DNA of 47,761 bases from Azoarcus sp. Aa7 (GTDB taxonomy: Bacteria > Pseudomonadota > Gammaproteobacteria > Burkholderiales > Rhodocyclaceae). Where the stretch lies: assembly GCF_014822185.1 (NCBI RefSeq), contig NZ_QVLR01000088.1, positions 1 to 47,761 of the forward strand, written 5' to 3'. The translations under genes and the position numbers were made by a program. This document shows positions 24,445 to 43,462 of this stretch, piece after piece; position 1 is the stretch's first letter; every line of letters starts with the position of its first letter. A model generated the notes under the pieces. It was not told the origin of the DNA. It saw only the letters and a program-made list of their open reading frames with translations, and did not search any database.

Positions 24445-24473
24445 CCCCGAATACCTGAAACAGGAGCGAATTC

Positions 24474-26171
24474 ATGGCACCTGCAAAACTCCGCCCGTTT
24501 CCCCCGGTCCCCGGTCCGGCCCCTGCGGGCGTCAGACCGGGCGAGCGCCCACGTGGCCCGGATATCACCGACTGGCGTCCCGAGGACGAACAGTTCTGGG
24601 CGCGTGAAGGCAGTCGCATCGCCGGCCGCAACCTGTGGATCTCCATCCCGAGCCTGCTCTGCGGCTTCGCCGTGTGGCTGATGTGGGGGATCATCACGGT
24701 GCAGATGGCCAATGCGGGCTTCCCCTTCACGCCCGACCAGCTCTTCTCGATCGCGGCCATCTCGGGCCTGTCGGGCGCCACGCTGCGCATTCCGGCGTCT
24801 TTCTTCATCCGCATCTGCGGCGGCCGCAATACGGTGTGGCTGACCACCGCGCTGCTGATGATCCCGGCGATCGGCACCGGCATCGCGCTGCAGGACAAGA
24901 ACACTCCGCTGTGGGTCTTCCAGTTGATGGCGCTGCTCTCGGGAATCGGCGGCGGCAACTTCGCGTGCTCGATGGCCAACATCAGCACCTTCTACCCCAA
25001 GCGCCTGCAGGGCACGGCGCTGGGCCTTAACGCGGGCCTGGGCAACTTCGGCGTCACGACCTCGCAGATTCTGATTCCGGCGGTGATGACCTTGGGTCTC
25101 TTCGGCGCGATCGGCGGCGACGCGATTCCGCTCGCGAAGGATTCGGCCACGCTGATCGGCAAGATCGCCGCCGGCACACCGACCTTCGTGCAGAACGCCG
25201 GCTTCATCTGGCTGCTCCTGCTGGTGCCGTTGGCGGTGGTGGGCTGGTTCGGCCTGAACAACCTGCGGACGGTGTCGCCCAATATCGGTTCGACCGGCGC
25301 GGCGATGGGCAAGATCCTGTTGCTTTACACGGTGGCGCTGGTCGTGTCCGGCATTGGCCTCTATCTGTACCTGCCGGCCCCCAGCGGCAACGGGCTGCTG
25401 TCGGGGAACGGCATGTGGGCGGTGCCGCCGCTGGTCATCGTCGGCACGCTGTTCGCAATGAAGGCGGTTGCGACCGGCGACATGAACGTCAATCTGACCA
25501 AGCAGTTCGCGATCTTCCGCAACAAGCACACGTGGTCGATGACGGCGCTGTACCTCGTCACCTTCGGCTCCTTCATCGGCTTTTCGATGGCGGTGCCGCT
25601 GTCGATCACGGTGATCTTCGGCAACACGCACGTGTTCGATCCGGCGACCAACGCCTGGGTGCATGCGAAGAATCCGAATGCGCCGTCAGCGCTGATGTAT
25701 GCATGGATCGGCCCCTTCGTTGGCGCGCTGATCCGCCCGGTGGGCGGCTGGATCTCGGACAAGCTGGGCGGCTCCATCGTCACCCAGGTGATCTCGCTGG
25801 TGCTCGTGGTCGCCTCCGCGGTCACCGGCTACGTGATGCACCTCGCCTACCAGTCGGCCACGCCGGAGACCTACTTCCTGGCCTTCATGCTGCTCTTCAT
25901 CGTGCTGTTCGCCGCATCGGGGATCGGCAACGGTTCGACCTTCCGCACCGTGGGCTTCGTGTTCGACCAGGACCAGCGCGGTCCGGTGCTGGGCTGGACC
26001 TCGGCGATCGGCGGCTACGGCTCCTTCATCGCGCCGGTGGTGATCGGCGGCCAGATCAAGGCCGGCACGCCGGAGCTTGCGATGTACGGCTTTGCGGTCT
26101 TCTACGCGGTGTGCCTGGTCATCAACTGGTGGTTCTACCTGCGCCGCAACGCCTACATCCGCAATCCCTGA
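24474..26171 (+). CDS. narK2: NarK2-type nitrate/nitrite transporter (MFS)
   Basis: The 565-residue member of the nitrate/nitrite porter family is of the longer NarK2 type associated with nitrate/nitrite antiport, which feeds the cytoplasmic NarG site and removes nitrite. A polar N-terminal extension (about 1-55, rich in Pro and Arg) precedes the first helix. ATLRIPASFFIRICGGR carries the arginine motif, and GIGGGNFACSMANISTFYPKR and LNAGLGNFGVTTSQ are the nitrate signatures; the second-half signature is SAIGGYGSFIAPVVIG. AGGAG lies eight bases before the ATG at 24474. narK1 and narK2 together recall the tandem or fused NarK1-NarK2 of other denitrifiers. narG begins 58 bases later. Confidence 0.92.
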   Translation: MAPAKLRPFPPVPGPAPAGVRPGERPRGPDITDWRPEDEQFWAREGSRIAGRNLWISIPSLLCGFAVWLMWGIITVQMANAGFPFTPDQLFSIAAISGLSGATLRIPASFFIRICGGRNTVWLTTALLMIPAIGTGIALQDKNTPLWVFQLMALLSGIGGGNFACSMANISTFYPKRLQGTALGLNAGLGNFGVTTSQILIPAVMTLGLFGAIGGDAIPLAKDSATLIGKIAAGTPTFVQNAGFIWLLLLVPLAVVGWFGLNNLRTVSPNIGSTGAAMGKILLLYTVALVVSGIGLYLYLPAPSGNGLLSGNGMWAVPPLVIVGTLFAMKAVATGDMNVNLTKQFAIFRNKHTWSMTALYLVTFGSFIGFSMAVPLSITVIFGNTHVFDPATNAWVHAKNPNAPSALMYAWIGPFVGALIRPVGGWISDKLGGSIVTQVISLVLVVASAVTGYVMHLAYQSATPETYFLAFMLLFIVLFAASGIGNGSTFRTVGFVFDQDQRGPVLGWTSAIGGYGSFIAPVVIGGQIKAGTPELAMYGFAVFYAVCLVINWWFYLRRNAYIRNP

Positions 26172-26229: not shown

Positions 26230-29200
26230 ATGAGTCATTTTCTCGACCGCCTGAAGTTCTTCGACAAGGTGAAGGACACCTTCGCCGACGGACACGGCAT
26301 CGTCACGAACGAGGACCGCAACTGGGAGGACGCCTACCGCAACCGCTGGCGCCACGACAAGGTCGTGCGCTCGACGCACGGCGTGAACTGCACCGGTGGC
26401 TGTTCGTGGAAGATCTTCGTGAAGAACGGCCTGGTGTCGTTCGAGATGCAGCAGACCGACTACCCGCGCACCCGCGAGGACCTGCCGAACCATGAACCGC
26501 GCGGCTGCCAGCGCGGGGCGTCGTTCTCGTGGTACCTGTACTCGCCGCACCGCATCAAGCACCCGATGATCCGCGGTCGCCTGCTCGAGTTGTATCGCGC
26601 CGAGCGCAAGAGCGGCAAGGATCCGGTCGAAGCCTGGGCGGCGATCCAGGCGGACAGCAAGAAGCGCGACAAGTACGTGAAGGTGCGCGGCCTGGGCGGC
26701 TTCGTGCGCACGGACTGGCAGGAGGTGAACGAGATCATCGCCGCGGCGAACATCTATACGATCAAGAAGTGGGGTCCGGACCGCATCTACGGCTTCTCGC
26801 CGATTCCCGCGATGTCGATGATCTCCTACGCGGCCGGCGCGCGTTACCTGTCGCTGATCGGCGCCGCCTGCGGCTCCTTCTACGACTGGTACTGCGACCT
26901 GCCCGCGGCGAGCCCGCAGACCTGGGGCGAGCAGACCGACGTGCCGGAAGCGGCCGACTGGTACAACTCGACCTACCTCATCATCACCGGCGCGAACCTG
27001 CCGATGACCCGCACCCCGGACGCGCACTTCGCGACCGAAGTCCGCTACAAGGGCGCGAAGATTGTATCGATGGCGCCGGACTATGCGGAATACGTGAAGT
27101 TCGCGGACTTGTGGATGCCGGTGAAACAAGGCACCGACGCCGCGGCCTTCCTCGCGATGGGCCACGTGGCGCTGAAGGAATACTTCATCGATCGCCAGGA
27201 GCCCTACTTCCAGGAATACGCGCGCAAGTACACCGACCTGCCGATGCAGGTGATCCTGCGTGCGCACGACGGCGCCTTCGTGCCGGACCGCAACCTGCGG
27301 GCGTCGGACTTCGACGACCTCTTGGGCGAGATGAACAATCCCGACTGGAAGACCATCGTCGTCGACGCGCGCACGAACTGCTACGTCGCGCCGAACGGAT
27401 CTGTGGGCTTCCGCTGGGGCGAGGAAGGCAAGTGGAACCTGTTGCCGAAGAACGCGGCCAACCAGCAGGACATCGAAGCCGAGCTGTCGTGCATCGACAG
27501 GCGTGACGACGTCGTGTCGGTCGGCTTCCCGCACTTCCAGCCGGGCGAACCGGGTCTGCTGTACCGCAACGTGCCGGCGCGCAAACTCACGCTCGCTTCT
27601 GGCGAGACCGTGTATGTGACGTCCGTATTCGACCTGCAGGTCGCGCAATACGGCATCGATCGTGGCCTCGGCGGCAAGAACGTCGCCAAGTCCTACGACG
27701 ACGCCAGCGTCGCCTATACCCCGGCGTGGGCGGCCAAGGTCACCGGCGTAAAGGCTGCCGACATCGAGCGTACCGGCCGCGAGTTCGCCGACAACGCGTC
27801 GAAGACGCGCGGCAAGTCCATGATCATCATGGGCGCGGCGATCAACCACTGGTACCACAACGACATGCAGTACCGGTCGATCATGAACCTGCTGCACATG
27901 TGCGGTTGCGTCGGCCAGAGCGGCGGCGGCTGGGCGCACTACGTCGGGCAGGAGAAGCTGCGCCCGCAGGCAGGCTGGGCGCCGATCGCGTTCGCGACCG
28001 ACTGGCAGCGTCCGCCGCGCCATCAGAATTCGACCTCGTACTGGTACTTCCACACCGACCAGTGGCGCTACGAGACCATCGACGCCGACGAACTGCTGCA
28101 GCCGGCGGCGAAGGGCAAGTACAAGGGCTACAAGCTCGCCGACTACAACGTCGCGGCGACGCGGATGGGCTGGCTGCCGTCCGCGCCACACTTCAACCGC
28201 AACCCGCTGGAACTCGTCGCCGAAGCCGAGAAGGCCGGTGCGACCGATGAAGCCGGAATCGCCAAGTACATCGTCGAGGAACTGAAGTCGGGCAAGCTCG
28301 ACGTCGCGTTCGCCGACCCGGATGCCGAGGAGAACTGGCCGCGCAACCTCTTCGTGTGGCGCGCGAACCTGATCGGCACCTCCGCGAAGGGCCACGAGTA
28401 CTTCCTGAAGCACCTGCTGGGCGCCCAGAACGGCGTGCTGCAGGAAGGGGGCGACGGCAAGGGCACGAAGGAAGTGAAGTGGCGCGACGAGGCGCCCGTC
28501 GGCAAGCTCGACCTGATGGTGGACATCAACTTCCGCCTGAACTCGACCGGCGCGTACTCGGACATCATCCTGCCGACGGCCACGTGGTACGAGAAGAACG
28601 ACCTCAACACCACGGACATGCACCCCTTCATCCACCCGCTGTCGGAAGCGGTGACGCCGGGCTGGGAATCGAAGTCGGACTGGCAGATCTTCAAGACCAT
28701 CGCCAAGACCTTCTCGGAACTCTCGGAGAAGCACCTGGGCGTCGCGAAGGACATCGTCGCGCTGCCGATGCAGCACGACTCGCCGTTCGAGTTGGCGCAA
28801 CCGCTCGGCCAGGTGCGCGACTGGAAGCGGGGCGAGTGCGAGCCGGTGCCGGGCAAGACGATGCCGCTGCTGAAGGTCGTCGAACGCGACTTCGCGAACA
28901 CTTACCGCAAGTACATCGCGCTCGGCCCGCTGATGACGAAGCTCGGCAACAACGTCAAGGGCATCGACTGGAACACCGAGCAGGAGTACGACGAGCTCAA
29001 GAAGTGCAACTACACGGTGCAGCTGCCCGGCATCTCGTTCGGCATGCCCTCGCTGGAAAAGGACATCTCGGTGTGCGACGCGGTGATGCGCATGGCCCCC
29101 GAGACCAACGGTGAAGTGGCGCACAAGTCGTGGTCGGCCCTGTCGAAGAAGACCGGCATCGACCACCATCACCTGTACGCCGGCCGCCACGAGGACAAGA

Positions 29201-29985
29201 TCACCTTCCGAGACATCCAGGCCCAGCCGCGCAAGATCATCACCGCGCCGACGTGGTCCGGGATCGAGTCGGAAACCGTGAGCTACACCGCGGGCTACAC
29301 CAACATCCACGAGCACATCCCGTTCCGCACGCTGACCGGCCGCGCCCACTTCTACCAGGATCACGAGTGGTTCCTCGACTTCGGCGAGGGCTTCTGCGCG
29401 TACCGTCCGCCGATCGACATGAAGGCACAGAACCTGATCCCGGATTCCGTGCGCAGGAAGCCGCATCTGACCCTGTCGTGGATCACGCCGCACTCGAAGT
29501 GGGGCATCCACTCCAGCTACCAGGACAACCTGCGCATGCTGTCGCTGTTCCGTGGCGGCCCGTACGTGTGGGTGTCCGAGGACGACGCCAAGGAGATCGG
29601 CCTCAAGGACAACGACTGGGTCGAGGCGATCAACGCCAACGGTGCGACGATGGCCCGCGCGGTGGTGTCGCAGCGTGTGCCGCGCGGCATGGCGCTGATG
29701 TACCACGCCCAGGAGAAGACGGTGAACGTGCCCGGCTCGCCCTCCACCGGCAAGCGCGGCGGCATCCTGAACTCCGTGACGCGCGTAATCGTCAAGCCCA
29801 CCAACATGGTCGGCGGCTACGCCCAGCTCGCGTACAGCTTCAACTACTACGGCACGGTGGGTTGCCAGCGTGACGAGATGGTGGTGCTGCACAAGGTCGA
29901 GGATCAGGACATCGACTGGCTGGAGCGGCCGCTGACGGCCGAACGCGAGCAGCAGCGCAACCCGGTCGGGGTGGGGCCACGGTAA
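26230..29985 (+). CDS. narG: Respiratory nitrate reductase alpha subunit NarG
   Basis: The 1251-residue molybdopterin subunit reduces nitrate to nitrite on the cytoplasmic face of the inner membrane. The FS0 [4Fe-4S] ligands are H50, C54, C58 and C93 (STHGVNCTGGC and RGCQRG), matching the E. coli pattern. The molybdenum-ligand aspartate is D223 in YCDLPAASPQTWGEQTD. TRTPDAHFATEVRYKG and KQGTDAAAFLAMGHV are conserved cofactor-domain blocks. There is no Tat signal, as expected for the cytoplasmic enzyme. A clean AAGGAG site precedes the ATG at 26230. It forms the NarGHI complex with the next genes, with NarJ as assembly chaperone. A palindromic element sits between its stop and narH. Confidence 0.97.
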   Translation: MSHFLDRLKFFDKVKDTFADGHGIVTNEDRNWEDAYRNRWRHDKVVRSTHGVNCTGGCSWKIFVKNGLVSFEMQQTDYPRTREDLPNHEPRGCQRGASFSWYLYSPHRIKHPMIRGRLLELYRAERKSGKDPVEAWAAIQADSKKRDKYVKVRGLGGFVRTDWQEVNEIIAAANIYTIKKWGPDRIYGFSPIPAMSMISYAAGARYLSLIGAACGSFYDWYCDLPAASPQTWGEQTDVPEAADWYNSTYLIITGANLPMTRTPDAHFATEVRYKGAKIVSMAPDYAEYVKFADLWMPVKQGTDAAAFLAMGHVALKEYFIDRQEPYFQEYARKYTDLPMQVILRAHDGAFVPDRNLRASDFDDLLGEMNNPDWKTIVVDARTNCYVAPNGSVGFRWGEEGKWNLLPKNAANQQDIEAELSCIDRRDDVVSVGFPHFQPGEPGLLYRNVPARKLTLASGETVYVTSVFDLQVAQYGIDRGLGGKNVAKSYDDASVAYTPAWAAKVTGVKAADIERTGREFADNASKTRGKSMIIMGAAINHWYHNDMQYRSIMNLLHMCGCVGQSGGGWAHYVGQEKLRPQAGWAPIAFATDWQRPPRHQNSTSYWYFHTDQWRYETIDADELLQPAAKGKYKGYKLADYNVAATRMGWLPSAPHFNRNPLELVAEAEKAGATDEAGIAKYIVEELKSGKLDVAFADPDAEENWPRNLFVWRANLIGTSAKGHEYFLKHLLGAQNGVLQEGGDGKGTKEVKWRDEAPVGKLDLMVDINFRLNSTGAYSDIILPTATWYEKNDLNTTDMHPFIHPLSEAVTPGWESKSDWQIFKTIAKTFSELSEKHLGVAKDIVALPMQHDSPFELAQPLGQVRDWKRGECEPVPGKTMPLLKVVERDFANTYRKYIALGPLMTKLGNNVKGIDWNTEQEYDELKKCNYTVQLPGISFGMPSLEKDISVCDAVMRMAPETNGEVAHKSWSALSKKTGIDHHHLYAGRHEDKITFRDIQAQPRKIITAPTWSGIESETVSYTAGYTNIHEHIPFRTLTGRAHFYQDHEWFLDFGEGFCAYRPPIDMKAQNLIPDSVRRKPHLTLSWITPHSKWGIHSSYQDNLRMLSLFRGGPYVWVSEDDAKEIGLKDNDWVEAINANGATMARAVVSQRVPRGMALMYHAQEKTVNVPGSPSTGKRGGILNSVTRVIVKPTNMVGGYAQLAYSFNYYGTVGCQRDEMVVLHKVEDQDIDWLERPLTAEREQQRNPVGVGPR

Positions 29986-30001
29986 GGACGCAACGTAAGG
30001 A

Positions 30002-30089
30002 GGGTTGGGTGTTTGCGGAGCCGGGCGAGGACTGTCTGAGCGAGCGTAGCGAGCGAGTTCCGCAGCCCGGCGGAGCAAATACCCAACCC
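30002..30089. repeat. Long inverted repeat in the narG-narH spacer
   Basis: GGGTTGGGTGTTTGC (30002-30016) pairs with GCAAATACCCAACCC (30075-30089) at 14 of 15 positions. An inner GCCGGGC (30020-30026) pairs with GCCCGGC (30065-30071). The centre holds GAGCGAGCGTAGCGAGCGAG. The element fills most of the 158-base gap inside the nar operon. It resembles a dispersed palindromic repeat and has no T-tract. Confidence 0.8.
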
Positions 30090-30143
30090 GGAGCGAAGTG
30101 GCACGGCGCCCTCGCCCAACGGATCAAGGATTAGGAGAAACAC

Positions 30144-31694
30144 ATGAAAATCCGCGCGCAATTCGCGATGGTGTTCAACCTCGACAAGTGCATCGGTTGC
30201 CACACCTGCTCGGTGACCTGCAAGAACGTCTGGTCGAACCGCAAGGGCATCGAATACGCCTGGTTCAACAACGTCGAGTCCAAGCCCGGCATCGGCTATC
30301 CGAAAAACTGGGAAAACCAGGAGAAGTGGAAAGGCGGCTGGGAAAAGGTCAACGGCAAGCTCGAGCTGAAGGCCGGCGGCAAGGTGAAGAAGATCGTGCA
30401 GATCTTCGCCAACCCCAACATGCCCGAGATCGACGACTACTACGAGCCCTTCACCTACGACTACGCGCGCCTGCACAACGCGCCGCTGTCGGAGGCCGCG
30501 CCGACCGCGCGACCGGTGTCGCAGATCACCGGCGAGAAGATGGACAAGATCACCTGGGGCCCAAACTGGGAGGACGACCTCGCCGGCGAATTCGCCGCGC
30601 GCTCGCAGGACGCCAACTTCGCGAACATGCAGAAGGAGATGTACAAGCAGTTCGAGAACACCTTCCACCTGTACCTGCCGCGCATCTGCAACCATTGCAT
30701 CAACCCCGCGTGCGTCGCATCCTGCCCCTCCGGCGCGATGTACAAGCGCGAGGAAGACGGCATCGTGCTCGCCGACCAGGACCGCTGCCGCGGCTGGCGC
30801 ATGTGCATCTCCGGCTGCCCGTACAAGAAGGTGTTCTTCAACTGGGAATCGTCCAAGGCCGAGAAGTGCATCGGCTGCTATCCGCGCGTCGAGTCGGGGC
30901 TCCCGACCGTCTGTTCGGAATCCTGCGTCGGCCGCATCCGCTACAACGGCATCGTCCTCTACGACGCCGACAAGCTGCTGGACGCCGCCTCGACCGACAA
31001 CGAGCAGGACCTGTACAAGGCCCACCTCGACCTCTTCGTCGATCCCTACGACCCCGCGATCATCGCCCAGGCGCTGAAGGACGGCGTGCCGCAGAGCTGG
31101 ATCGACGCCGCCCAGAAGTCGCCGATCTACAAGATGGCGGTCGAGTGGAAGATCGCCTTCCCGCTACACCCCGAGTTCCGCACGCTGCCGATGATCTGGT
31201 ACGTGCCGCCGCTCTCGCCGGTGCAGTCGCAGATCGACCAGAAGAATCTGCCGACCGAGTCCGACGGCGTGATCCCGAAGGCCGAGGCGATGCGCCTGCC
31301 GGTGCAGTACCTCGCGAACCTGCTCACCGCGGGCAAGACCGAGTACATCACCACGGCACTGAACCGCCTGCTCGCGATGCGCTCGTACATGCGCTCGATC
31401 CACGTCGAAGGCACACCGGACCTCGGACCGCTGAACCGCGCCGGCATCACCGAGCAGATCGCGAAGGATATGTACCGCTACCTCGCGATCGCGAACTACG
31501 AGGACCGCTTCGTCGTGCCGACCGCTCACGAGGAGATCCGTCTCGACGACTACCACGGCTTCCAGGGGCAGAACGGCTTCACCTTCGGCGCCGACGTATC
31601 CAAGGGCCACGGCACCTTCGCCCTCTTCCCCGAGCGCCGCACGCAGTCGCCAGAACCGCGCGAACCGGCCCCCCTTGCCCGCCCCCGCGACTGA
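30144..31694 (+). CDS. narH: Respiratory nitrate reductase beta subunit NarH
   Basis: The 516-residue iron-sulfur subunit passes electrons from NarI haem to NarG. Four cysteine groups are seen: C16-C19-C22-C26 (CIGCHTCSVTC), C182-C185-C190-C194, C215-W218-C221-C225 (CRGWRMCISGC) and C242-C245-C257-C261. The tryptophan at 218 replaces a cysteine, the known feature that gives a [3Fe-4S] centre beside three [4Fe-4S] clusters. AGGAG precedes the ATG at 30144. The stop at 31694 is followed eight bases later by narJ. The gene is separated from narG by a palindromic insertion that leaves both reading frames intact. Confidence 0.97.
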   Translation: MKIRAQFAMVFNLDKCIGCHTCSVTCKNVWSNRKGIEYAWFNNVESKPGIGYPKNWENQEKWKGGWEKVNGKLELKAGGKVKKIVQIFANPNMPEIDDYYEPFTYDYARLHNAPLSEAAPTARPVSQITGEKMDKITWGPNWEDDLAGEFAARSQDANFANMQKEMYKQFENTFHLYLPRICNHCINPACVASCPSGAMYKREEDGIVLADQDRCRGWRMCISGCPYKKVFFNWESSKAEKCIGCYPRVESGLPTVCSESCVGRIRYNGIVLYDADKLLDAASTDNEQDLYKAHLDLFVDPYDPAIIAQALKDGVPQSWIDAAQKSPIYKMAVEWKIAFPLHPEFRTLPMIWYVPPLSPVQSQIDQKNLPTESDGVIPKAEAMRLPVQYLANLLTAGKTEYITTALNRLLAMRSYMRSIHVEGTPDLGPLNRAGITEQIAKDMYRYLAIANYEDRFVVPTAHEEIRLDDYHGFQGQNGFTFGADVSKGHGTFALFPERRTQSPEPREPAPLARPRD

Positions 31695-31702
31695 AGGAGA
31701 CG

Positions 31703-32248
31703 ATGATGAAAATCTTCCGCTTGTTGTCCGCCCTGCTCGACTACCCGAGCGACGGCTTCCTCGATGCGCTGCGTGAGCTCGCCGGAAACGACCCGTACGC
31801 CTTCGTCGAGTCGCTCGACGAGGAAGTCGCCCTCAGCGTCGAGGAATATCGCAGCGTCGCCGACTTCATTACGACGCTGCTCGCCACCGATTCGCTCGAG
31901 CTGCAGGGCGCCTACGTGCAGTGCTTCGACCTCACCGCCGAGCACAGCCTGCACCTGACGCACCACCTGTTCGGCGAGGAGAAGACGCGCGGCCCCGCGC
32001 TGATCGACCTCGGCGAGTTCTACCGCAGCTACGGCCTGCAGGCCGACGAGAAGGAACTGCCGGACTACCTGCCGGTGATGCTGGAGTTCTGCTCGACGCT
32101 GAGCATCGGCGAAGCCTGGATCTTCCTGGGCGACGTCGCCAAGGTGCTCAAGGTGCTCGCCGACAACCTGGAAAAATCCGCCAGCCCCTACGCGCCGCTG
32201 GTCCGGATCGTGGAAAAACAGGGCAGCCTGACCCGCCTGGCTGCCTGA
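31703..32248 (+). CDS. narJ: Nitrate reductase assembly chaperone NarJ
   Basis: The 181-residue cytoplasmic chaperone (TorD/NarJ family) binds apo-NarG and guides cofactor insertion and membrane docking. It is not part of the final complex. FRLLSALLDYPSDGF at the start, YVQCFDLTAEHSLHLTHHLFGE in the middle and GEFYRSYGLQADEKELPDYLPVMLEF are typical of NarJ. The gene starts with tandem ATGs at 31703 and 31706. AGGAG at 31695-31699 is better spaced for the second, so the true protein may be one residue shorter. It is an all-helical protein with no membrane segment. narI begins nine bases after its stop. Confidence 0.94.
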   Translation: MMKIFRLLSALLDYPSDGFLDALRELAGNDPYAFVESLDEEVALSVEEYRSVADFITTLLATDSLELQGAYVQCFDLTAEHSLHLTHHLFGEEKTRGPALIDLGEFYRSYGLQADEKELPDYLPVMLEFCSTLSIGEAWIFLGDVAKVLKVLADNLEKSASPYAPLVRIVEKQGSLTRLAA

Positions 32249-32257
32249 GGAGACGAC

Positions 32258-32965
32258 ATGAACACAATCAACTTCTTCTTCGGGGTCTATCCCTACATCG
32301 CGCTGTCGGTGTTCGTGATCGGCAGCTGGATCCGCTACGACAACGAGCAGTACACGTGGAAGACGGACTCGTCGCAGTTGCTGTCGAAACAGAACATGTG
32401 GATCGCGAGCAACCTGTTCCACGTCGGCATCCTGTCGATCTTCGCCGGGCACTTCGCCGGCCTCGTGCTGCCGCACGGGCTGTGGATCGCGCTGGGCGTT
32501 TCCGATCTGCAACACCAGTGGATCGCCATCGTCGCCGGCAGCGTGTTCGGCACCATGTGCCTGATCGGCGGCGCGATCCTGTGGCTGCGCCGCATGTTCA
32601 ACCCGCGCGTGCGCGCCGCGGGTCGCCGCATGGACGCCTTCATCCTGAGCTGGCTGATGCTGACGCTGGTTGCCGGTCTGTCGACGCTGCCGGTCTCGAT
32701 CGGCCACGCCAACCACGGCGACCCGGGCGTGATGCTGGCGCTGTCGGGCTGGGTGCAGAGCGTGCTGACCTTGCAGCCGAAACCCGAGCTGCTGACTGCG
32801 GTGGAGCCGGTGTTCCGCTTCCATATGGTGCTGGGCATGACGGTGTTCCTGCTCTTCCCCTTCACGCGCCTGGTGCACATCCTGACCGCGCCGCTCAGCT
32901 ACGTCGGCCGCGCCTACCAGATCGTGCGGTCGAAGCGGCGCATCAAGGCGACCGCATCGGCCTGA
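32258..32965 (+). CDS. narI: Respiratory nitrate reductase gamma subunit NarI
   Basis: The 235-residue, five-helix inner-membrane cytochrome b subunit takes electrons from quinol through two haems b and anchors NarGH. Haem-ligand histidines are visible at H55 and H65 (SNLFHVGILSIFAGH) and at H189 and H207 (FRFHMVLG and TRLVHILTAP), matching the E. coli spacing. GHFAGLVLPHGLW near the quinol site is conserved. GAGGAG precedes the ATG at 32258. It is the last structural gene of the nar operon; narX starts 85 bases later. Confidence 0.96.
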   Translation: MNTINFFFGVYPYIALSVFVIGSWIRYDNEQYTWKTDSSQLLSKQNMWIASNLFHVGILSIFAGHFAGLVLPHGLWIALGVSDLQHQWIAIVAGSVFGTMCLIGGAILWLRRMFNPRVRAAGRRMDAFILSWLMLTLVAGLSTLPVSIGHANHGDPGVMLALSGWVQSVLTLQPKPELLTAVEPVFRFHMVLGMTVFLLFPFTRLVHILTAPLSYVGRAYQIVRSKRRIKATASA

Positions 32966-33050
32966 GGCCATCCCGGTGGCGGCAGCCCCCGGCTTGCAGG
33001 GTGGCGGCAGGCGACGTAGTCTGCACGCCACCCTGCTTCATCGAGCGTTC

Positions 33051-34997
33051 ATGCGTCCCCTCGGCAGCAGCCTCAGCACCAAGATCACCGGCATCCTGCT
33101 GGTGTTTTTCCTCGTCGCCCTGACGGCGATCGGCATCACGCTGTTCATGTCCTGGCAGCTCGAGGGGGCGGCCGCGGCCATCAACGACGCCGGCAGCCTG
33201 CGCATGCGCACGCATCGCATCGGCCATCTTCTCGCCCATGCCCCGCAGGCTTCGCCGGACGAAGCCCTACGCATCCGCGAAACGCTCAGGACGGAACTGG
33301 ACGAGTTCGACCACGTCTTTGCCGAACTGCGCCGTGGAAACCCGCAGCGCCCCCTGTTCGTCCCCCGCGACAACGACATTCCCGCGGACATGCAGCGGAT
33401 GGCGGACTTCTGGTCCGAACAGGTCCGGCCGACTCTGGATGGGCTGCTCGACGCGCCGGATGGCGTCAACATTGCCGCGGATCCACCCGCGTTCGACGCG
33501 ACGATCCGGACATTCGTGGCCGGCATCAACGACGTCGTGCTCAAGATGGAACAGAGCTATGCGCGCAACACCGACATCCTGCGTGCGTCGCAGGTGTCCC
33601 TGATCGCGCTGGCGGTGATCGGCACCCTGTTCCTGATCCGCTTCTTCTTCGTGCTCGTGATCCGCCCGGTCTCGGAACTGCAGACCGGCATCAAGCGGAT
33701 GGAGCAGGAGGACTTCAGCGCGCGCGTCCCGGTCCTCGCCAAGGACGAATTCGGCTAGCTATCCGACGGCTTCAACCGCATGGCCGTCCACCTGCAGGGC
33801 CTGTATGGAACGCTCGAGGAGCGCGTCGACGTCAAGACCCGCAGCCTCGAGGAGAAAAACCGCCAGCTGGAGATCGTTTACGATATGGCGGCCTTCCTGC
33901 GCCAGCCGCAGGATGTGGACGCCCTGTGCCGCGGCTTCCTGCAGCGCGTGCAGCAGATGTTCGGCGCGGCGGCGAGCTCCGCCCGGCTGCTCGACAGGGA
34001 TTCGCGCCAGCTTTGCATGACCGTGCATGCCGGACTGGACAACGCATTCATCGACCGCGAGGCGACGCTCGAATGCGGCGAATGCGTATGCGGGCAGGCG
34101 GCCCGCGGCGGCATCTCGCTCATCTGCGATATTGAACGGCCCGATACCACTCCCGATCTCGGCGTCTGCCGCCGTGCCGGCTTCAAGCTCGTTTCCGCCA
34201 CGCCCATCGGCGCGAACCAGCAGACGCTGGGCATCTACAACCTGTATTTCCGCGAGGCGCGCCCGCTCGGGGACTCCGACCGCCAGCTCCTCGAAACCCT
34301 GGGACAGCAGCTCGGCATCGCGATCGAGAACCAGCGCCTGCATGCGAGCGACCGCGAGCTCGCGGTGTCGGAGGAACGCAACCTCCTCGCACGCGAACTG
34401 CACGACTCCATCGCGCAGGGACTGGCGTTCATGAACCTGCAGGTGCAGATGCTCGACGACGCCCTGCGACACAACGACGCGAACCAGGCGCAGGCCACCC
34501 TCGCCATGCTTCGCCAGGGCGTCCAGGAGAGCTACGACGACGTGCGCGAACTGCTGGTGCATTTCCGCACGCGCGTCGCAAAGCAGGATCTCCCCGGTGC
34601 GATCGGTGCCGCGCTCCGCCGGCTCGCCGACCAGAGCGGGATTGCGACGGAACTGGAGCTGGAAGGCGGCGGCGCGCCGCTCGATGCGGAGGTCGAGACG
34701 CAGGCGCTCTACATCCTGCAGGAAGCTCTTTCCAACGTGCGCAAGCACGCCCAGGCGAAGTCCGTGCACGTCGCCCTGCGCCGCGGCGTGCATGGGCTGA
34801 CGCTCGTCGTGCGCGACGACGGCGTGGGCTTCGACGAAGGCGCCCGCAGCGCCCGCGAAAAGGAAAACCACATCGGCCTGCAGGTCATGCGCGAGCGTGC
34901 GCTGCGCATCGGCGGAAAATTCTCGCTCAGCTCCACGCCCGGCCGCGGCACCGAAGTGCGCCTCGAGTTCCCCCGACTCAACCAGGAACCGAACTGA
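33051..34997 (+). pseudogene. narX: narX nitrate/nitrite sensor kinase interrupted by an in-frame TAG
   Basis: Read through, the gene encodes about 648 residues of a NarX-type kinase that phosphorylates NarL in response to nitrate and nitrite. TM1 is at about 12-34 and is followed by the nitrate-binding P-box AINDAGSLRMRTHR. TM2 is at about 187-207, then HAMP. Codon 236 (33756-33758) is TAG, giving KDEFG-stop-LSDGFNRM. Family members have Glu here, and GAG to TAG is one base change. Both halves are in the same frame, so there is no indel. The membrane half (33051-33758) would be 235 residues and lack the kinase. The ATG at 33051 begins the family-typical RPLGSSLSTKI. Nonsense mutation, sequencing error, suppression or reinitiation are all possible. 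Confidence 0.85.
33780..34997 (+). CDS. Kinase half of NarX (possible reinitiation product)
   Basis: Downstream of the TAG, an ATG at 33780 opens 405 residues with the rest of NarX: a coiled coil (LEERVDVKTRSLEEKNRQL), a GAF-like domain (about 40-190) with a cysteine group CGECVCG, and a HisKA_3 domain with the phospho-accepting histidine at 208 (RELHDSIAQG; codon 34401-34403). The HATPase domain follows (ALSNVRKHA, DDGVGFD, HIGLQVMRERA). No ribosome binding site is visible before the ATG, so efficient translation is doubtful. If made, the protein would be a soluble kinase without nitrate input. The stop overlaps the narL start by one base. Confidence 0.5.
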   Translation: MAVHLQGLYGTLEERVDVKTRSLEEKNRQLEIVYDMAAFLRQPQDVDALCRGFLQRVQQMFGAAASSARLLDRDSRQLCMTVHAGLDNAFIDREATLECGECVCGQAARGGISLICDIERPDTTPDLGVCRRAGFKLVSATPIGANQQTLGIYNLYFREARPLGDSDRQLLETLGQQLGIAIENQRLHASDRELAVSEERNLLARELHDSIAQGLAFMNLQVQMLDDALRHNDANQAQATLAMLRQGVQESYDDVRELLVHFRTRVAKQDLPGAIGAALRRLADQSGIATELELEGGGAPLDAEVETQALYILQEALSNVRKHAQAKSVHVALRRGVHGLTLVVRDDGVGFDEGARSAREKENHIGLQVMRERALRIGGKFSLSSTPGRGTEVRLEFPRLNQEPN

Positions 34998-35686
34998 TGT
35001 CCGCCCCGATCCGAGTGCTCCTCGTCGACGACCACGCCCTCTTCCGCAGCGGCATCAAATCCCTGCTGCAACGCCACCCCGAATTCGAGATCGTCGGCGA
35101 GGCGGGCGACGGCATGGAAGGCGTCAAGCGCGCCGCGCAGCTGCGGCCCGACGTCGTGCTGCTCGACCTGCACATGCCCGGCCTCTCGGGACGAGACGCG
35201 GCGGCAATGATGGCCGAGGAGGCGCCGGAGGCGCACGTGCTGATGCTCACCGTGTCGGAAGACGCCGAGGACCTCATCGAAACCCTGCGCGCCGGCGCCT
35301 GCGGCTACCTGCTGAAGAACATCGAGGCCGAGACGCTCACGGCCGCGATCACGAAGGCTGCCGCTGGCGAATCGGTGATCTCGCCGCAGATGATGGGTAA
35401 GCTCGTGCAGGGCGTGCGCGGCGCCCCGCCCAAGGCGAGCACCGAAGCCGCAGCGCCAGCCGTGGTCGCCTCGGAACTCAACAAGCTCTCCCCGCGCGAG
35501 CGGGAAACCCTCGTACTCGTGGCGCGCGGCCAGAGCAACAAGGAAATCGCACGCACGCTGGATCTCGCCGAGAGCACGGTCAAGATTCACGTCCAGAACG
35601 TCCTGCGCAAGCTCGGCCTGACGAGCCGCGTTCAGGCAGCCGTGTTTGCGGTCGAACAGGGAATCGTGCAGGATCCCCGGATCTGA
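34997..35686 (+). CDS. narL: NarL-type nitrate response regulator
   Basis: The 229-residue response regulator of the NarL/FixJ class has a receiver domain (about 5-120) with LLVDDHALFRSG, phospho-acceptor D57 in LLDLHMPG and the conserved lysine in YLLKN. After an Ala-rich linker (about 140-160) comes a LuxR-type helix-turn-helix: LSPRERETLVLVARGQSNKE and STVKIHVQNVLRKLGL. Phospho-NarL binds heptamer sites to switch nar and other anaerobic genes. All key residues are intact even though the cognate narX is interrupted. It overlaps the narX stop by one base (TGATG), so translation is coupled to the kinase half. Confidence 0.93.
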   Translation: MSAPIRVLLVDDHALFRSGIKSLLQRHPEFEIVGEAGDGMEGVKRAAQLRPDVVLLDLHMPGLSGRDAAAMMAEEAPEAHVLMLTVSEDAEDLIETLRAGACGYLLKNIEAETLTAAITKAAAGESVISPQMMGKLVQGVRGAPPKASTEAAAPAVVASELNKLSPRERETLVLVARGQSNKEIARTLDLAESTVKIHVQNVLRKLGLTSRVQAAVFAVEQGIVQDPRI

Positions 35687-36218: not shown

Positions 36219-36422
36219 ACGCCGGCCGCAAGGGGTGTGCTGCCGACATACCCGCCACGCGTTTTTCCTTATCCGAGATCAAGGAGTCCGCGCGGCCGGG
36301 TACATACAGTTACGTTACCGCCCACTTCGGGCTGCGCTGCATGGGCGTACCGGCACCCCGGCCCGCCCGCAACGGCAGAACACAGGCAGATCACTCGACG
36401 CTTGAACAACGGAGCCCATTAC

Positions 36423-38381
36423 ATGAGCCAGGACCAGAACAAGGATCACAACCTCGACGGCCAGCCCGACCCGAGCCGCCGCAAGTTCCTCAACACCGCC
36501 GCCTTCGCCGGCCTCGCCGGCGCCGGCCTGTCGGTCGGCCTGTCGGCCTGCAAGCAGGAACAGGCCCCCGCTCCTGCCGCCCCGGCAGCTCCGGCGGCAC
36601 CCGCGGCCGCACCGGCCGCGCACGGCACCGCCGGCATCCACCTGAAGCCGGGCGAACTCGACACCTACTACGGATTCTGGAGCGGCGGCCACACCGGCGA
36701 CTTCCGCGTGCTGGGCCTGCCTTCGGGCCGCGAGATCCATCGCGTCCCCTGCTTCGTGCCCGACGCGCTGACCGGCTGGGGCATCACGAACGAGTCCAAG
36801 AAGATCATGGGCACCAAGCCCGACGGCAGCCTGCGCTACACGGTCGCCGACACCCACCACACCCACGCGTCGTACAAGGACGGCAATTACGACGGCCGCT
36901 ACGCGTGGATCAACGACAAGATCAACAGCCGCCTGGCCCGTATCCGCCTCGACTACTTCATCTGCGACAAGATCACCGAACTGCCCAACGTCCAGGGCTT
37001 CCACGGCATCTTCCCGGACAAGCGCGACCCGGTCGATCCTGCAATCAACTACACCACGCGCGTGTTCTGCGGCTCCGAGTTCCAGATCCCGCTGCCGAAC
37101 GCCGGCAAGGACGTGAATGACCCGTCGAAGTACCGCTCGATGTTCAGCTGCGTCGACGCCGAGACGATGGAAGTGCGCTGGCAGGTGCTGATCGACGGCA
37201 ACTGCGACCTCGCCGCCACTTCGTACGACGGCAAGCTCGCCGCGACCAACCAGTACAACACCGAAAGCGGCGTGCTGTACCCCGAGATGATGTCCGCCGA
37301 GCGCGACGCGTGCCTGTTCTTCAACGTCGCCCGCATCGAACAGGCGGTGAAGGACGGCAAGTTCAAGACCTATGGCGACTCCAAGGTGCCGGTGGTCGAC
37401 GGTACGCGCGAATCCAACAAGGATCCGAAGACCGCCCTGACCTGCACCGTCTCGGTGCCGAAGAACCCGCACGGCGTGAACGCCAGCCCGGACGGCAAGT
37501 ACTTCATCTGCGCCGGCAAGCTCTCGCCCACGGCAACCGTCATCGAACTCGCCAAGGTGCTGGAGTGGTTCGAAGGCAATCTCGAGAGCGCGGACAAGGC
37601 CATCGTGGCCGAAGTCGAGATCGGCCTCGGCCCCCTGCACACCGCCTTCGACGGTCGCGGCAACGCCTACACCACGCTGTTCCTCGACAGCCAGGTCGTG
37701 AAGTGGAACGTCGACAAGGCGATCAAGTTCTCCGCCGGCGACAACACCCAGCAGTATGTCGTCGACCGCCTCGACGTGCAGTACCAGCCGGGCCACATCA
37801 ACGCCTCGCAGTCGGAAACCGCGGCAGCGGACGGCAAGTGGCTGTGCGTCGGTTGCAAGTTCTCGAAGGACCGCTACCTGCCGGTCGGCCCCCTGCACCC
37901 GGAAAACGAGCAGCTCATCGACATTTCGGGCGAGAAGATGGTGCTGATGGCCGACCACCCGGTCCGCCCCGAGCCGCACGACTTCATCATCATGAAGCGC
38001 GAGCTGATCAACCCGAAGCAGGTCTACAACATCGACGAATTCCCGCTCGCGATCAAGGATCCGAAGGAATCCGGCGTGTTCCGCGAGGGCAAGAAGGTCA
38101 CGGTGAAGATGTATTCGATGGCCCCGGCGTTCAGCCTCACCGAGTTCAAGCTCAAGGTGGGCGACGAGGTCACGCTCATCCTCACCAACCTCGACAAGGT
38201 GGAGGACCTGACGCACGGCTTCGCGATCCCGAAGTACAACGTCAACTTCATCGTGAATCCGCAGGAAACCGCATCGGTCACCTTCAAGGCCGACAAGCCG
38301 GGCGTGTTCTGGTGCTACTGCACGCACTTCTGCCACGCCCTGCACCTGGAGATGCGCAGCCGCATGATCGTCGAGGCCTGA
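36423..38381 (+). CDS. nosZ: Nitrous oxide reductase NosZ (Tat-dependent, clade I type)
   Basis: The 652-residue periplasmic copper enzyme reduces N2O to N2. The Tat motif SRRKFLN (R19, R20) and a hydrophobic stretch end at LSAC (C43), which fits a lipobox, followed by an Ala-Pro linker (48-65). The seven-bladed propeller supplies the CuZ histidines: SGGHTGDF (H90), ADTHHTHAS, NPHGVNASPDGK, GPLHTAFDG, PGHINASQSET and EPHDF. The C-terminal cupredoxin domain binds CuA through C633, C637, H641 and M644 (CTHFCHALHLEM). Tat export indicates clade I. The ATG at 36423 has GGAG at 36411-36414; the open frame extends upstream but lacks homology. A terminator follows, so nosZ is transcribed apart from nosR. 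Confidence 0.96.
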   Translation: MSQDQNKDHNLDGQPDPSRRKFLNTAAFAGLAGAGLSVGLSACKQEQAPAPAAPAAPAAPAAAPAAHGTAGIHLKPGELDTYYGFWSGGHTGDFRVLGLPSGREIHRVPCFVPDALTGWGITNESKKIMGTKPDGSLRYTVADTHHTHASYKDGNYDGRYAWINDKINSRLARIRLDYFICDKITELPNVQGFHGIFPDKRDPVDPAINYTTRVFCGSEFQIPLPNAGKDVNDPSKYRSMFSCVDAETMEVRWQVLIDGNCDLAATSYDGKLAATNQYNTESGVLYPEMMSAERDACLFFNVARIEQAVKDGKFKTYGDSKVPVVDGTRESNKDPKTALTCTVSVPKNPHGVNASPDGKYFICAGKLSPTATVIELAKVLEWFEGNLESADKAIVAEVEIGLGPLHTAFDGRGNAYTTLFLDSQVVKWNVDKAIKFSAGDNTQQYVVDRLDVQYQPGHINASQSETAAADGKWLCVGCKFSKDRYLPVGPLHPENEQLIDISGEKMVLMADHPVRPEPHDFIIMKRELINPKQVYNIDEFPLAIKDPKESGVFREGKKVTVKMYSMAPAFSLTEFKLKVGDEVTLILTNLDKVEDLTHGFAIPKYNVNFIVNPQETASVTFKADKPGVFWCYCTHFCHALHLEMRSRMIVEA

Positions 38382-38400
38382 CCGGTCCTCGACAAGGACT

Positions 38401-38427
38401 GCGCCGGAACCGTAACGGTTTCGGCGC
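38401..38427 (+). terminator. Hairpin downstream of nosZ
   Basis: GCGCCGGAACCGT and ACGGTTTCGGCGC form a 13-base stem with one mismatch and a single-base tip, 20 bases after the nosZ stop. It lacks a T-tract. It may protect the 3' end of the nosZ mRNA. Confidence 0.5.
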
Positions 38428-38469
38428 GGTAATCCCGCCCCTGCAAAGGGGCAACGATGGGTGATATTC

Positions 38470-38496
38470 GAGGGGCCGTGCGCCCCTCCTTTTTTT
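38470..38496 (+). terminator. Intrinsic terminator after nosZ
   Basis: GAGGGGC-CGTGC-GCCCCTC followed by CTTTTTTT is a classic rho-independent terminator with a 7-bp stem. It separates the nosZ transcript from the nosR operon. Confidence 0.88.
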
Positions 38497-38533
38497 CACT
38501 TTGCGTGCGGCGCAGCAGATGAGTTTGCACCAA

Positions 38534-38547
38534 TTGATCGGAAACAA
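38534..38547 (+). promoter_or_regulatory. FNR/DNR-type box upstream of nosR
   Basis: TTGAT-CGGA-AACAA matches nine of ten conserved bases of TTGAT-N4-ATCAA. Its centre is 41.5 bases ahead of a start predicted from a TAGACT -10 element at 38570-38575, the canonical class II activator geometry. This implies anaerobic or NO-dependent induction of the nosR operon. Confidence 0.75.
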
Positions 38548-38569
38548 TTACGTCACGAGGTCTGGTTCC

Positions 38570-38575
38570 TAGACT
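38570..38575 (+). promoter_or_regulatory. Candidate -10 element of the nosR operon
   Basis: TAGACT matches four of six -10 consensus bases. Its distance from the FNR-type box suits class II activation, with transcription starting near 38582. Confidence 0.45.
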
Positions 38576-38605
38576 GTGTCCAGTCCTGCCGAATCGGAAA
38601 GTGTC

Positions 38606-40786
38606 ATGAATTTTCTGGCTGCACTCCGCAATATCCTGTTGTCCGTCGTGCTTTCGTCGACCGCATCGCTCGCACTCGCCGATACCTACGAAGCGAAGCT
38701 GCCCGACGAGATCAACACCGCCCCCGAGCTGTGCAAGTACGCCCCGTGCGCCGAGGTCCTGCCCGGCGCCACGTCCTTTTCGGAGCGCAAGGGCCAGCCC
38801 CGCTACGTCGAGGGCTATGCGGGGGAAGCCGGCAAGAAGAAGCTCGTCGGCTACGTGATGCTCTCGACGGACATCACCGACACGCCCGCCTACTCCGGCA
38901 AACCGGTGATCACGCTGATCGGCATGGACACCGGCGGCCGTTTCGTCGGCGTGAAGATCCTGAAGCACTCGGAGCCCATCCTGCTCCTGGGCATCCCCGA
39001 GTCGGCGCTGATCCGCTTCAACCAGCAGTACCTCGGCCAGTTCGTCGGCAACAACATCGAGATCGGCCAGTCCCGCCCGGAAGAGAACATCATCGGGCTC
39101 GACGCGATCTCGGGCGCGACCGTAACGGTGATCGCGCAGAACCAGGTGATGATGACCTCCGGCACGGCGGTCGCCCGCCAGGTCGGCATCCTCAAGCCCA
39201 CGATCCGCGAACAGGCGAAATTCCGCGACACCGGAGCGAAACCCGACTGGGCTGCACTGGTGAGGGAAGGTGCCGTCCGGCGCCTCGCGGTAGCGCCCGA
39301 ACAGGTCGGCCTCGAACGCGGCGGCGAGCCCTTCATCGAGCTCTGGTTCGGCTACCTCAATCACCCCGACCTCGGCCGCGCGATCCTCGGCGAGGGGGCC
39401 TGGCGCAACCTGATGGCGCGCCTGCATGAAGGCGAGCACGCCCTCTTCGTGATCCGCAGCGGCGGGAAAGAGTCCTTCAAGGGCTCGGGCTTCGTGCGCG
39501 GCGGCATTTACGACCGCGTACAGGTGCGCCAGGGGGCCGACTCCTTCACCTTCCGCGACCTCGACGCCGTAAACCTCTACGGCATCGATGCCGTCGGCGC
39601 ACCCGCCTACAGCGAATCCTCGATCTTCATCATCCGCTCGAAGGCCTTCTCGGGCGCCTATCCGTGGAAGTTCGTGTTCCTGGGCAACCGCGTCGATCGC
39701 GCCACCGGCGCGCGCAGCTTCGCCAACTTCGACGTCGAGTACTGGCTCCCGGATCAGTACCTGGAGGGCGGCCGCCCGGAAGTCGTGAAACCCGACGCGC
39801 CGTGGGTGCGCGTGTGGAAGACGCGCGCGGTCGAGATCGTGCTCTTCGCCGCGCTGCTGGTTTCCGTCGCCACGGTTTACGCATTCCGCGAAAAGCTCAC
39901 GCGCCGCGCGACGCGCAAGAACAAGTGGCCCGTGAATGCCTTCAAGTACAGCGCCTGGGTCATCAGCATCGGCTTCGTCGGCTTCGGCATGCTCGCCCAG
40001 CCCTCCATCACGCAGGTGCTGACGTGGTTCCACGCACTGCTGTTCCAGTGGAAGTGGGAGCTGTTCCTGTCCGACCCCTTCATCTTCCTGTTCTGGATCT
40101 TCATCATCATCACGGTGTTCGTCTGGGGCCGGGGGCTGTTCTGCGGCTGGCTGTGCCCGTTCGGCTCGCTGTCGGAGCTGCTGTACAAGGTCGGCGGCGC
40201 CGTGGGCCTCAAGCGCTTCCAGTTCCAGCTGCCGCGCAGATGGCACAATCGCCTGAAATGGGTGAAGTACGGCGTGTTCTTCGGCCTGCTCGCGGTGTCC
40301 TTCTTCTCGCTGGGGCTGGCCGAGAAGCTCGCCGAGGTCGAGCCGTTCAAGACCACCTTCCTCGTCGGCCTGTTCAACCGCAGCTGGCCCTACACGCTGT
40401 TCGCCGCCGGCCTGCTGGGCCTGTCGATCTTCACCGAACGGCCGTTCTGCAAGTACCTGTGCCCGCTCGGCGCGTCGCTCGCGATGCCTTCGACCTTCCG
40501 CTGGTTCGGCCTCAAGCGCAAGCAGGAATGCGACAGCTGCAAGGCCTGCGCGGTCGGCTGCGGCTCGCAGGCGATCGACGAGAACGGCCGCATCGACCAC
40601 CGCGAGTGCCTGCATTGCCTCGACTGCATGGTCCTGTATACGGATGATCACGCCTGCCCGCCGCTCGCGCAGGAACGCAAGCGCCGCACCAAGGCCGGCC
40701 TGCCGATCACGCCGATCGGCGCCGACGGCTACTACATCCCGATCAAGCCGGTGCCCGTCCGCGCCGACGCCATGGCGAAGAACTGA
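38606..40786 (+). CDS. nosR: NosR, membrane flavo-iron-sulfur protein for N2O reduction
   Basis: The 726-residue inner-membrane protein is needed to supply electrons to, and mature, NosZ. A signal-type helix (about 8-25) exposes a periplasmic FMN-binding domain with the covalent flavin site DAISGATVT (T172). Further helices follow from about 405. Two CX3CP motifs face the cytoplasm: C513-C517 (CGWLCPFG) and C615-C619 (CKYLCPLG). A ferredoxin-like tail has CDSCKACAVGC and CLHCLDCMVLYTDDHACP. The ATG at 38606 (MNFLAALRN) is preferred to a start 30 bases earlier because it directly precedes the signal helix. It is first in the operon behind the FNR-type box and lies downstream of nosZ rather than upstream as in Pseudomonas. 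Confidence 0.96.
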   Translation: MNFLAALRNILLSVVLSSTASLALADTYEAKLPDEINTAPELCKYAPCAEVLPGATSFSERKGQPRYVEGYAGEAGKKKLVGYVMLSTDITDTPAYSGKPVITLIGMDTGGRFVGVKILKHSEPILLLGIPESALIRFNQQYLGQFVGNNIEIGQSRPEENIIGLDAISGATVTVIAQNQVMMTSGTAVARQVGILKPTIREQAKFRDTGAKPDWAALVREGAVRRLAVAPEQVGLERGGEPFIELWFGYLNHPDLGRAILGEGAWRNLMARLHEGEHALFVIRSGGKESFKGSGFVRGGIYDRVQVRQGADSFTFRDLDAVNLYGIDAVGAPAYSESSIFIIRSKAFSGAYPWKFVFLGNRVDRATGARSFANFDVEYWLPDQYLEGGRPEVVKPDAPWVRVWKTRAVEIVLFAALLVSVATVYAFREKLTRRATRKNKWPVNAFKYSAWVISIGFVGFGMLAQPSITQVLTWFHALLFQWKWELFLSDPFIFLFWIFIIITVFVWGRGLFCGWLCPFGSLSELLYKVGGAVGLKRFQFQLPRRWHNRLKWVKYGVFFGLLAVSFFSLGLAEKLAEVEPFKTTFLVGLFNRSWPYTLFAAGLLGLSIFTERPFCKYLCPLGASLAMPSTFRWFGLKRKQECDSCKACAVGCGSQAIDENGRIDHRECLHCLDCMVLYTDDHACPPLAQERKRRTKAGLPITPIGADGYYIPIKPVPVRADAMAKN

Positions 40787-42538: not shown

Positions 42539-43451
42539 ACGCGCCGCACCAGTGATCGCGGTGCGCGGCGCGACCAAGCATTACGGCGCAGTGCGGGCCG
42601 TCGACGGCGTCGACCTCGAAGTCGCGCCGGGCGAGCTGTTCGGCCTGATCGGGCGCAACGGCGCCGGCAAGAGCACCCTGTTCAAGATGATGCTGGGCCT
42701 GATCCCGGCAAGCGCCGGCGACATCCGCATCGACGGCTCGCCCGTCACCGGCAGCGGCTTCCGCGCCGTGCGCCGCAAGATCGGCTACCTGCCCGAGAAC
42801 GTCGTCCTCTACGACAACCTCACCGGCCTCGAGACGCTCGAGTTCTTCGCCCGCCTCAAGGGTGCCCCGGCAAGCGAATGCGGCCCCGCGCTCGACCGCG
42901 TCGGCCTCGCCCACGCGGCCCGCCGGCGCGTACGCGAATACTCCAAAGGCATGCGCCAGCGCCTCGGCTTCGCACAGGCGCTCCTCGGCCGCCCGCGCAT
43001 CCTGTTCCTAGACGAACCCACCACCGGCCTCGACCCCGAGGCGATCCGCGAGTTTTACGTGATCCTGCGCGGCCTCAAGGCCGACGGCGTGACGATGATC
43101 CTCACCTCGCACATCCTCGCCGAGATCCAGGAGCGCGTCGATCGGCTCGCGATCATGGCCGCCGGCAAGATCCAGGCCGTCGGCACCGTGCAGGAGCTGC
43201 GCGAACAGATGGATCTGCCGCTGTGGTTCCGCGTTCGTCTCGCGCACGAGGACTTCCATCACGTCCGCGCGGTACTCGGCGGCCTGCCGATACTCGCGAT
43301 CGAGGCACGCGAGGACCACGTCGCCGTGGAATGCCAACGCGAATCTAAGATGGTCGTGATGCAGGCGCTCGCCTCGCTCGGCGACAAGGTGCTCGACCTG
43401 CACGTGCACGAACCCTCGCTCGAAGACGTGTTCTTCGGCTTCTCCGACTAA
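42510..43451 (+). CDS. nosF: NosF, ABC transporter ATPase for NosZ maturation
   Basis: The 313-residue cytoplasmic ABC ATPase has Walker A GRNGAGKST, Q-loop region KIGYLPENVVLYDNLTG, signature EYSKGMRQRLG (a KGM variant of LSGGQ common in this branch), Walker B ILFLDEPTTGLDP and switch histidine TSHI. With NosY it powers the transport step that supports CuZ assembly. The start is uncertain. TTG at 42510 has GGAG at a good distance and overlaps the nosD end by 29 bases; GTG at 42552 would leave only the core. The C-terminal 90 residues form the usual accessory domain. Next is nosY, 11 bases later. Confidence 0.93.
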   Translation: MADTSRAPAERAAPVIAVRGATKHYGAVRAVDGVDLEVAPGELFGLIGRNGAGKSTLFKMMLGLIPASAGDIRIDGSPVTGSGFRAVRRKIGYLPENVVLYDNLTGLETLEFFARLKGAPASECGPALDRVGLAHAARRRVREYSKGMRQRLGFAQALLGRPRILFLDEPTTGLDPEAIREFYVILRGLKADGVTMILTSHILAEIQERVDRLAIMAAGKIQAVGTVQELREQMDLPLWFRVRLAHEDFHHVRAVLGGLPILAIEAREDHVAVECQRESKMVVMQALASLGDKVLDLHVHEPSLEDVFFGFSD

Positions 43452-43462
43452 GGGCGACGCAC

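Follow-up and report, generated by a model that had tools for sequence, protein, structure and literature searches.

The nitrate sensor NarX phosphorylates its partner NarL in the presence of nitrate and dephosphorylates it in the absence of nitrate, and the P-box glycine and arginine are described as having a role in sensors of this type (PMC7247690). The HAMP domain is believed to relay the membrane signal to the kinase (PMC8199190), and in E. coli each nitrate sensor is able to phosphorylate both regulators (PMC3349551). A natural nonsense mutation in a sensor kinase gene has been described for arcB of Dickeya dadantii 3937, where it lies at codon 383, was confirmed by resequencing and is absent from other sequenced Dickeya; the authors left open whether ArcA partners another sensor (PMC3349551).

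The interrupted narX gene and its neighbourhood

The window analysed here, a stretch of 47,761 nucleotides, is the whole of one contig (C88) of a 5.39-Mb draft genome in 107 contigs, rated 100% complete and belonging to a soil and aquifer bacterium of Aromatoleum, a genus of the Rhodocyclales (Betaproteobacteria). Its narX reading frame runs from ATG 33051 to TGA 34995-34997 on the forward strand, with a TAG at 33756-33758 as the only stop between them (Table 1). The start at 33051 was taken over the GTG at 32976 given in the list of open reading frames, as the orthologues also begin with methionine there. An earlier note, made from the letters of this DNA, had claimed that an in-frame TAG splits narX at the HAMP domain, and this is borne out: both halves lie in one frame and the flanking peptide reads KDEFG-stop-LSDGFNRM as given there.

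Table 1. Coordinates of narX, of sites within it and of neighbouring genes in the window
Feature	Position	Strand	Remarks
narG, narH, narJ, narI	26230..32965	+	intact; each above NCBIfam cut-off
narX 5' part	33051..33758	+	235 aa; PilJ/NarX-type sensor and truncated HAMP
In-frame TAG	33756..33758	+	splits narX directly after DEFG (presumed DExG-type) motif
narX 3' part	33759..34997	+	rest of HAMP, GAF, HisKA_3, HATPase_c; open to normal TGA
First in-frame ATG after stop	33780..33782	+	405-aa fragment; Shine-Dalgarno-like pairing not above background
In-frame ATG preceded by GGAG	33885..33887	+	370-aa fragment: GAF, HisKA_3, HATPase_c
narL response regulator	34997..35686	+	intact; ATG overlaps narX TGA; AGGA upstream
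nosZ and NosR-like gene	36237..40786	+	follow narXL; nosZ above cut-off, NosR-like gene with NosR as best match, below cut-off

The upstream part of the gene matches Pfam PilJ (7.6e-19), and its translation contains a P-box-like AGSLRM; its HAMP match covers profile positions 6-38 of 53 and scores 23.9 bits, just under the Pfam cut-off of 25. With a PilJ/NarX-type sensor carrying a P-box and the cognate narL next door, the locus has the features of a NarX/NarQ-type sensor gene, except that a complete HAMP together with GAF, HisKA_3 and HATPase_c does not occur in one polypeptide because the TAG divides these domains. The DEFG in front of the stop is what we take to be a DExG-type motif, the TAG itself presumably replaces the residue that opens the second HAMP helix, and the downstream part presumably includes the S-helix region, which was placed by position. 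The HAMP domain and S-helix of NarX are reportedly the subject of work by Appleman and Stewart in 2003 and by Stewart and Chen in 2010.

The genes around narX are well preserved, with two NarK-type transporters 5' of narG, both below their model cut-offs, and narL, nosZ, the NosR-like gene and nosD downstream. The best NCBIfam match of the narL product is NarL at 216.6 bits, below the model cut-off of 250. The first narK, narG, narH, narI, narL, nosZ and nosD gave stop-free alignments at 95-99% identity to the relative G009, and narJ aligned in frame at 88% without a stop to the open reading frames of relatives, in agreement with the claim that NarL and the nar structural genes (narGHJI) are intact. 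When the window was surveyed for stops against the open reading frames of four relatives (G009, G013, G014 and G015) and judged by eye, narX was the only clear interruption among the matches listed.

Several other places where frames of relatives cross stops in the window were judged by eye not to be broken genes. They were taken as upstream extensions or non-coding sequence and comprise 42938-44275, minus-strand 12527-11100, a frame of G009 reaching into narK2 (23868-26168), and further frames that overlap better conserved genes read in a different frame or on the other strand. A search for plasmid copies of the narX region returned only two 59-base matches, in Caballeronia.

Conservation of narX in the genus and family

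This narX is present in 15 of the 17 Aromatoleum genomes searched, the window's own included, and the stop occurs only in the window's. Whole-gene identity to the 14 other orthologues is 65-94%, the best matches being G015 (94%), whose narX is identical to that of Aromatoleum toluolicum, and G009 (93%); the nearest named narX genes for the kinase half are those of Aromatoleum tolulyticum (96%), A. toluclasticum (95%) and A. toluolicum (94%). All 14 are uninterrupted, with GAG, GAA, GAC or GAT at the column of the stop, that is, glutamate in 11 and aspartate in three, so that the expectation of a usual Glu at this HAMP column is confirmed. The comparison with close relatives that the earlier note had asked for thus gives one-piece orthologues throughout, as would be looked for around a nonsense pseudogene, and it supports a nonsense change of one base at a HAMP position where an acidic residue is conserved. 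Because the 14 orthologues are uninterrupted, the split exceeds chance noise among open reading frames. The possibility that these are two normal separate genes was rejected on the same count, narX being one gene in 14/14. It is probable that the nar-linked narX was split, and the sensor uncoupled from the kinase, by a recent single-base nonsense mutation that no other genome examined shares.

The distribution of narX in the genus follows that of narG, which was found above cut-off in the same 15 genomes, G005 and G008 being without both. Nap without nar has been described for A. diolicum and KH32C (PMC7825797), a pattern that by inference would fit G005 and G008.

The family was surveyed in a sample of 395 genomes, with the best three candidates per genome scored and a match accepted at 1e-90, which gave 106 narX-like rows in 103 genomes (three genomes had two). 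An in-frame stop was flagged in ten rows, eight of which proved on inspection to be ordinary gene ends, leaving genuine premature stops in 2/106, the window narX and a gene of G146. Broken narX is rare in the family sample, and the stop in the window is private among the genomes searched. With two genuine stops left of the ten flagged, recurrent splitting of narX as a pattern was rejected.

The gene of G146 (L206, contig C246) has a genuine premature TAG at codon 146 of the match. It resembles the window narX as another such TAG in the same family, but this stop falls within the sensor region, where it aligns with residue 153, and comes from an 81%-complete genome in 370 contigs.

Identity to the relatives also varies along the gene. 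In bins of 25 codons, identity over codons 51-150 (33201-33500) is 73-95% with A. toluolicum and G009 and falls to 55-71% with A. tolulyticum, A. toluclasticum, A. evansii and G007; on either side, at codons 1-50 and 151-350, it is 84-99% with all of these relatives (loci compared: L010-L013, L016 and L017). This pattern points to block-wise replacement of the sensor domain within the genus. A second divergent block, at codons 351-375 (34101-34175) in the GAF region, is 97% identical to A. tolulyticum and 61-81% identical to the six others shown.

Selection on the two halves and the age of the stop

Both halves of the gene still bear the marks of constraint. Nei-Gojobori dN/dS between the window and A. 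toluolicum is 0.187 for the 5' half and 0.106 for the 3' half, as compared with 0.163 and 0.075 for an intact pair (A. toluolicum and G009); the window values resemble those of the intact pair, which suggests that purifying selection is still to be seen in both halves. Changes private to the window, counted at sites where at least seven of eight near orthologues agree, number 34 and consist of the stop, nine synonymous and three missense changes in the 5' half, and 12 synonymous and nine missense changes in the 3' half. Missense changes are below the neutral expectation in both halves (p=0.001 for the 5' and p=0.005 for the 3' half). The missense share of the 5' half does not differ from that of the relatives (p=0.69), while that of the 3' half (9/21) is nominally above six intact relatives pooled (64/227, p=0.21) but not statistically different from them or from all eight (125/343, p=0.64). 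L014 and L015 were kept out of the first pool for their far larger numbers of missense changes (30 and 31 in the 3' half), an excess taken as reflecting their greater distance. Decay of the kinase half therefore appears to have barely begun.

Such near-normal constraint means that the stop is recent, that the kinase half is still used, or that the stop is an error. Under the last of these, the TAG would have arisen in base calling or assembly, or by mutation in a single laboratory clone, and narX would be a normal single piece in the natural strain. This is rather unlikely, though it finds some backing in the literature: in the deposited genome of M. smegmatis, sequencing errors accounted for a significant share of the interrupted coding sequences (PMC1852416), and the authors of the arcB study left open a laboratory origin of their stop (PMC3349551). 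It would also agree with there being just one substituted base in a gene whose constraint is otherwise normal, and with an assembly that is a draft of 107 contigs. The TAG, however, lies well inside its contig, the survey of the window by eye against the open reading frames of four relatives gave no second clear case of a genuine gene cut short among the matches listed, and all 12 other kinase rows of the genome are free of stops.

Translation beyond the stop

Since selection shows no measurable relaxation, the kinase half could still be made and be useful. Internal starts were scored for Shine-Dalgarno pairing by a simple duplex energy with an anti-Shine-Dalgarno sequence, a score that is not a translation model. 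The earlier note had suggested a soluble kinase reinitiated at 33780. This ATG, 21 bases past the stop, pairs at -2.1 kcal/mol, and 63% of the 545 ATGs in the window pair at least as well, which leaves that suggestion unsupported as it was put; 33780 was rejected as a designed restart. The ATG at 33885 pairs at -6.4 kcal/mol, helped by a synonymous change private to the window (GGAG, 33869-33887). It is kept in 8/14 orthologues, where the pairing is -3.0 or weaker, and 54 of the 545 window ATGs reach -6.4 or better; with four in-frame ATGs scanned, a site as good as this one is expected by chance about once in three. Among the 14 intact orthologues, the stretch scanned holds an equally good in-frame ATG in one (L019, at the counterpart of 33780), and five have an internal start that good when GTG and TTG are counted. 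The interval 33756-33884 holds seven window-private changes including the stop (shuffle P 0.012, for a region picked once the data were known). Windows of 30, 60 or 130 bases give no significant clustering of private changes in general (P 0.30, 0.89 and 0.35). As a sign of restart, the Shine-Dalgarno-like site before 33885 is suggestive at most.

These observations bear on a reading in which narX would now be two genes, one for a stub of the sensor in the membrane and one for a soluble GAF-HisKA_3-HATPase_c kinase with its start at 33780 or 33885; this kinase would act on NarL independently of nitrate and lock nar on or off. It is favoured by the open and constrained kinase domains, by the strength and private improvement of the 33885 site, by the rarity of an equal ATG start among intact orthologues and by the seven private changes of the interval chosen post hoc, and autophosphorylation assays have been carried out on E. 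coli NarX in soluble form (Noriega et al. 2008). Against it stand the background-level pairing at 33780, the one-in-three chance expectation for a 33885-grade site, the five intact orthologues with starts that good once GTG and TTG are admitted and the lack of significant general clustering; moreover, a fragment from 33885 would be without the remainder of the HAMP, and the reading draws on a single genome. This reading is improbable. Still more doubtful is a specific form of it, in which a soluble kinase from 33885, its Shine-Dalgarno site newly improved by the silent change, would drive NarL without nitrate while the sensor stub stays in the membrane and nitrate input passes to a nap-linked NarX2-NarL2 pair.

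Readthrough of the TAG, through an amber suppressor or by programmed recoding, would restore full-length NarX and would agree with the persisting constraint on the kinase half. The genome gave 51 tRNA matches with anticodons assigned by ARAGORN (30 at retrieved loci, the remaining 21 in 18 further stretches), and the check for an amber suppressor called for by the earlier note found no CUA anticodon among them, although a tRNA that is very diverged or falls into a gap of the assembly could escape detection. The release factor 1 gene prfA is present above cut-off and without stops. With no CUA-anticodon tRNA among the 51 and prfA intact, suppression is unlikely and its proposal in that note is weakened. 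A stop at this column in 0/14 orthologues likewise means that there is no conserved recoding, and a full-length NarX made by readthrough of any kind is scarcely to be expected.

The second narXL pair and nitrate control

The genome encodes a second pair on contig C98 (L168:6548-13553, G000), where a 654-aa NarX, with AGSLR in its P-box region, and a NarL, above the NCBIfam cut-off, precede napA and napG. NarX2 is 25% and 33% identical to the two parts of NarX1, and NarL2 is 45% identical to NarL1. A second NarX-like kinase, 30-35% identical to the query, occurs in 17/17 genus genomes (in G004 as two matches in one frame) and lies less than 2 kb from napA in 12 of them, including the two without narG. 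In the others, napA is about 39 kb (G001) or 29 kb (G010) from this gene, on a separate contig (G012), or without a match above cut-off (G002 and G003), and the G002/G003 group may carry a different NarX-like paralogue. Expression of the second narXL pair was not observed in EbN1, in whose group the second NarX is not beside napA.

The recent nonsense mutation, as the probable explanation, would act as follows. Translation would end after residue 235 and yield a sensor with a partial HAMP and no kinase, presumably as a membrane-anchored stub. As the second HAMP helix and all beyond it would be removed from the sensor, no nitrate-controlled NarX kinase or phosphatase would be formed; the kinase half would be made poorly or not at all and, if made, would be detached from the nitrate-sensing part. 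Nitrate-dependent phosphorylation of the neighbouring NarL would be lost, and narL expression might be reduced through polarity or lost translational coupling, though narL has its own AGGA. The intact NarX2-NarL2 pair beside napA could provide partial cover, although, at 25% and 33% identity for the sensors and 45% for the regulators, cross-talk is an assumption. The earlier note, which did not mention the second pair, had considered loss of nitrate sensing, but nitrate sensing as a whole need not be lost because of the intact narXL pair by napA. Rewired nitrate control would be a weaker possibility, suggested by the second narXL pair and by the Shine-Dalgarno-like site before 33885.

Should the stop be real, the strain would show by a natural experiment if Aromatoleum can denitrify without the nar-linked NarX, relying on the second narXL pair or on other regulators; otherwise the case is one of common gene loss at the level of a strain, or it recalls the need to check reads. 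In the literature consulted on narX truncation, pseudogenes and nonsense alleles and on Aromatoleum narX, neither a naturally occurring nonsense allele of narX nor loss of the gene in Aromatoleum was found reported, which is not proof of absence.

Comparison with described systems

The window narX shares its domain order and the P-box-like AGSLRM with the one-piece orthologues of the genus, from which it differs in the stop inside the HAMP, such that no continuous sensor-to-kinase polypeptide is predicted. Its place between narGHI and nosZ is the position reported for the expressed narX of EbN1.

By analogy, the stop would be a known kind of event, of the same kind as that in arcB of D. dadantii 3937. 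The two differ in that the Dickeya stop affects the ArcAB system and was confirmed by resequencing (PMC3349551), whereas the stop in the window comes from a draft assembly and a second narXL pair remains. They are alike in that one nonsense codon interrupts a respiratory two-component sensor kinase while the regulator gene is kept; the arcB stop, too, was not found in the other sequenced members of its genus, and cross-talk with another sensor was proposed there (PMC3349551).
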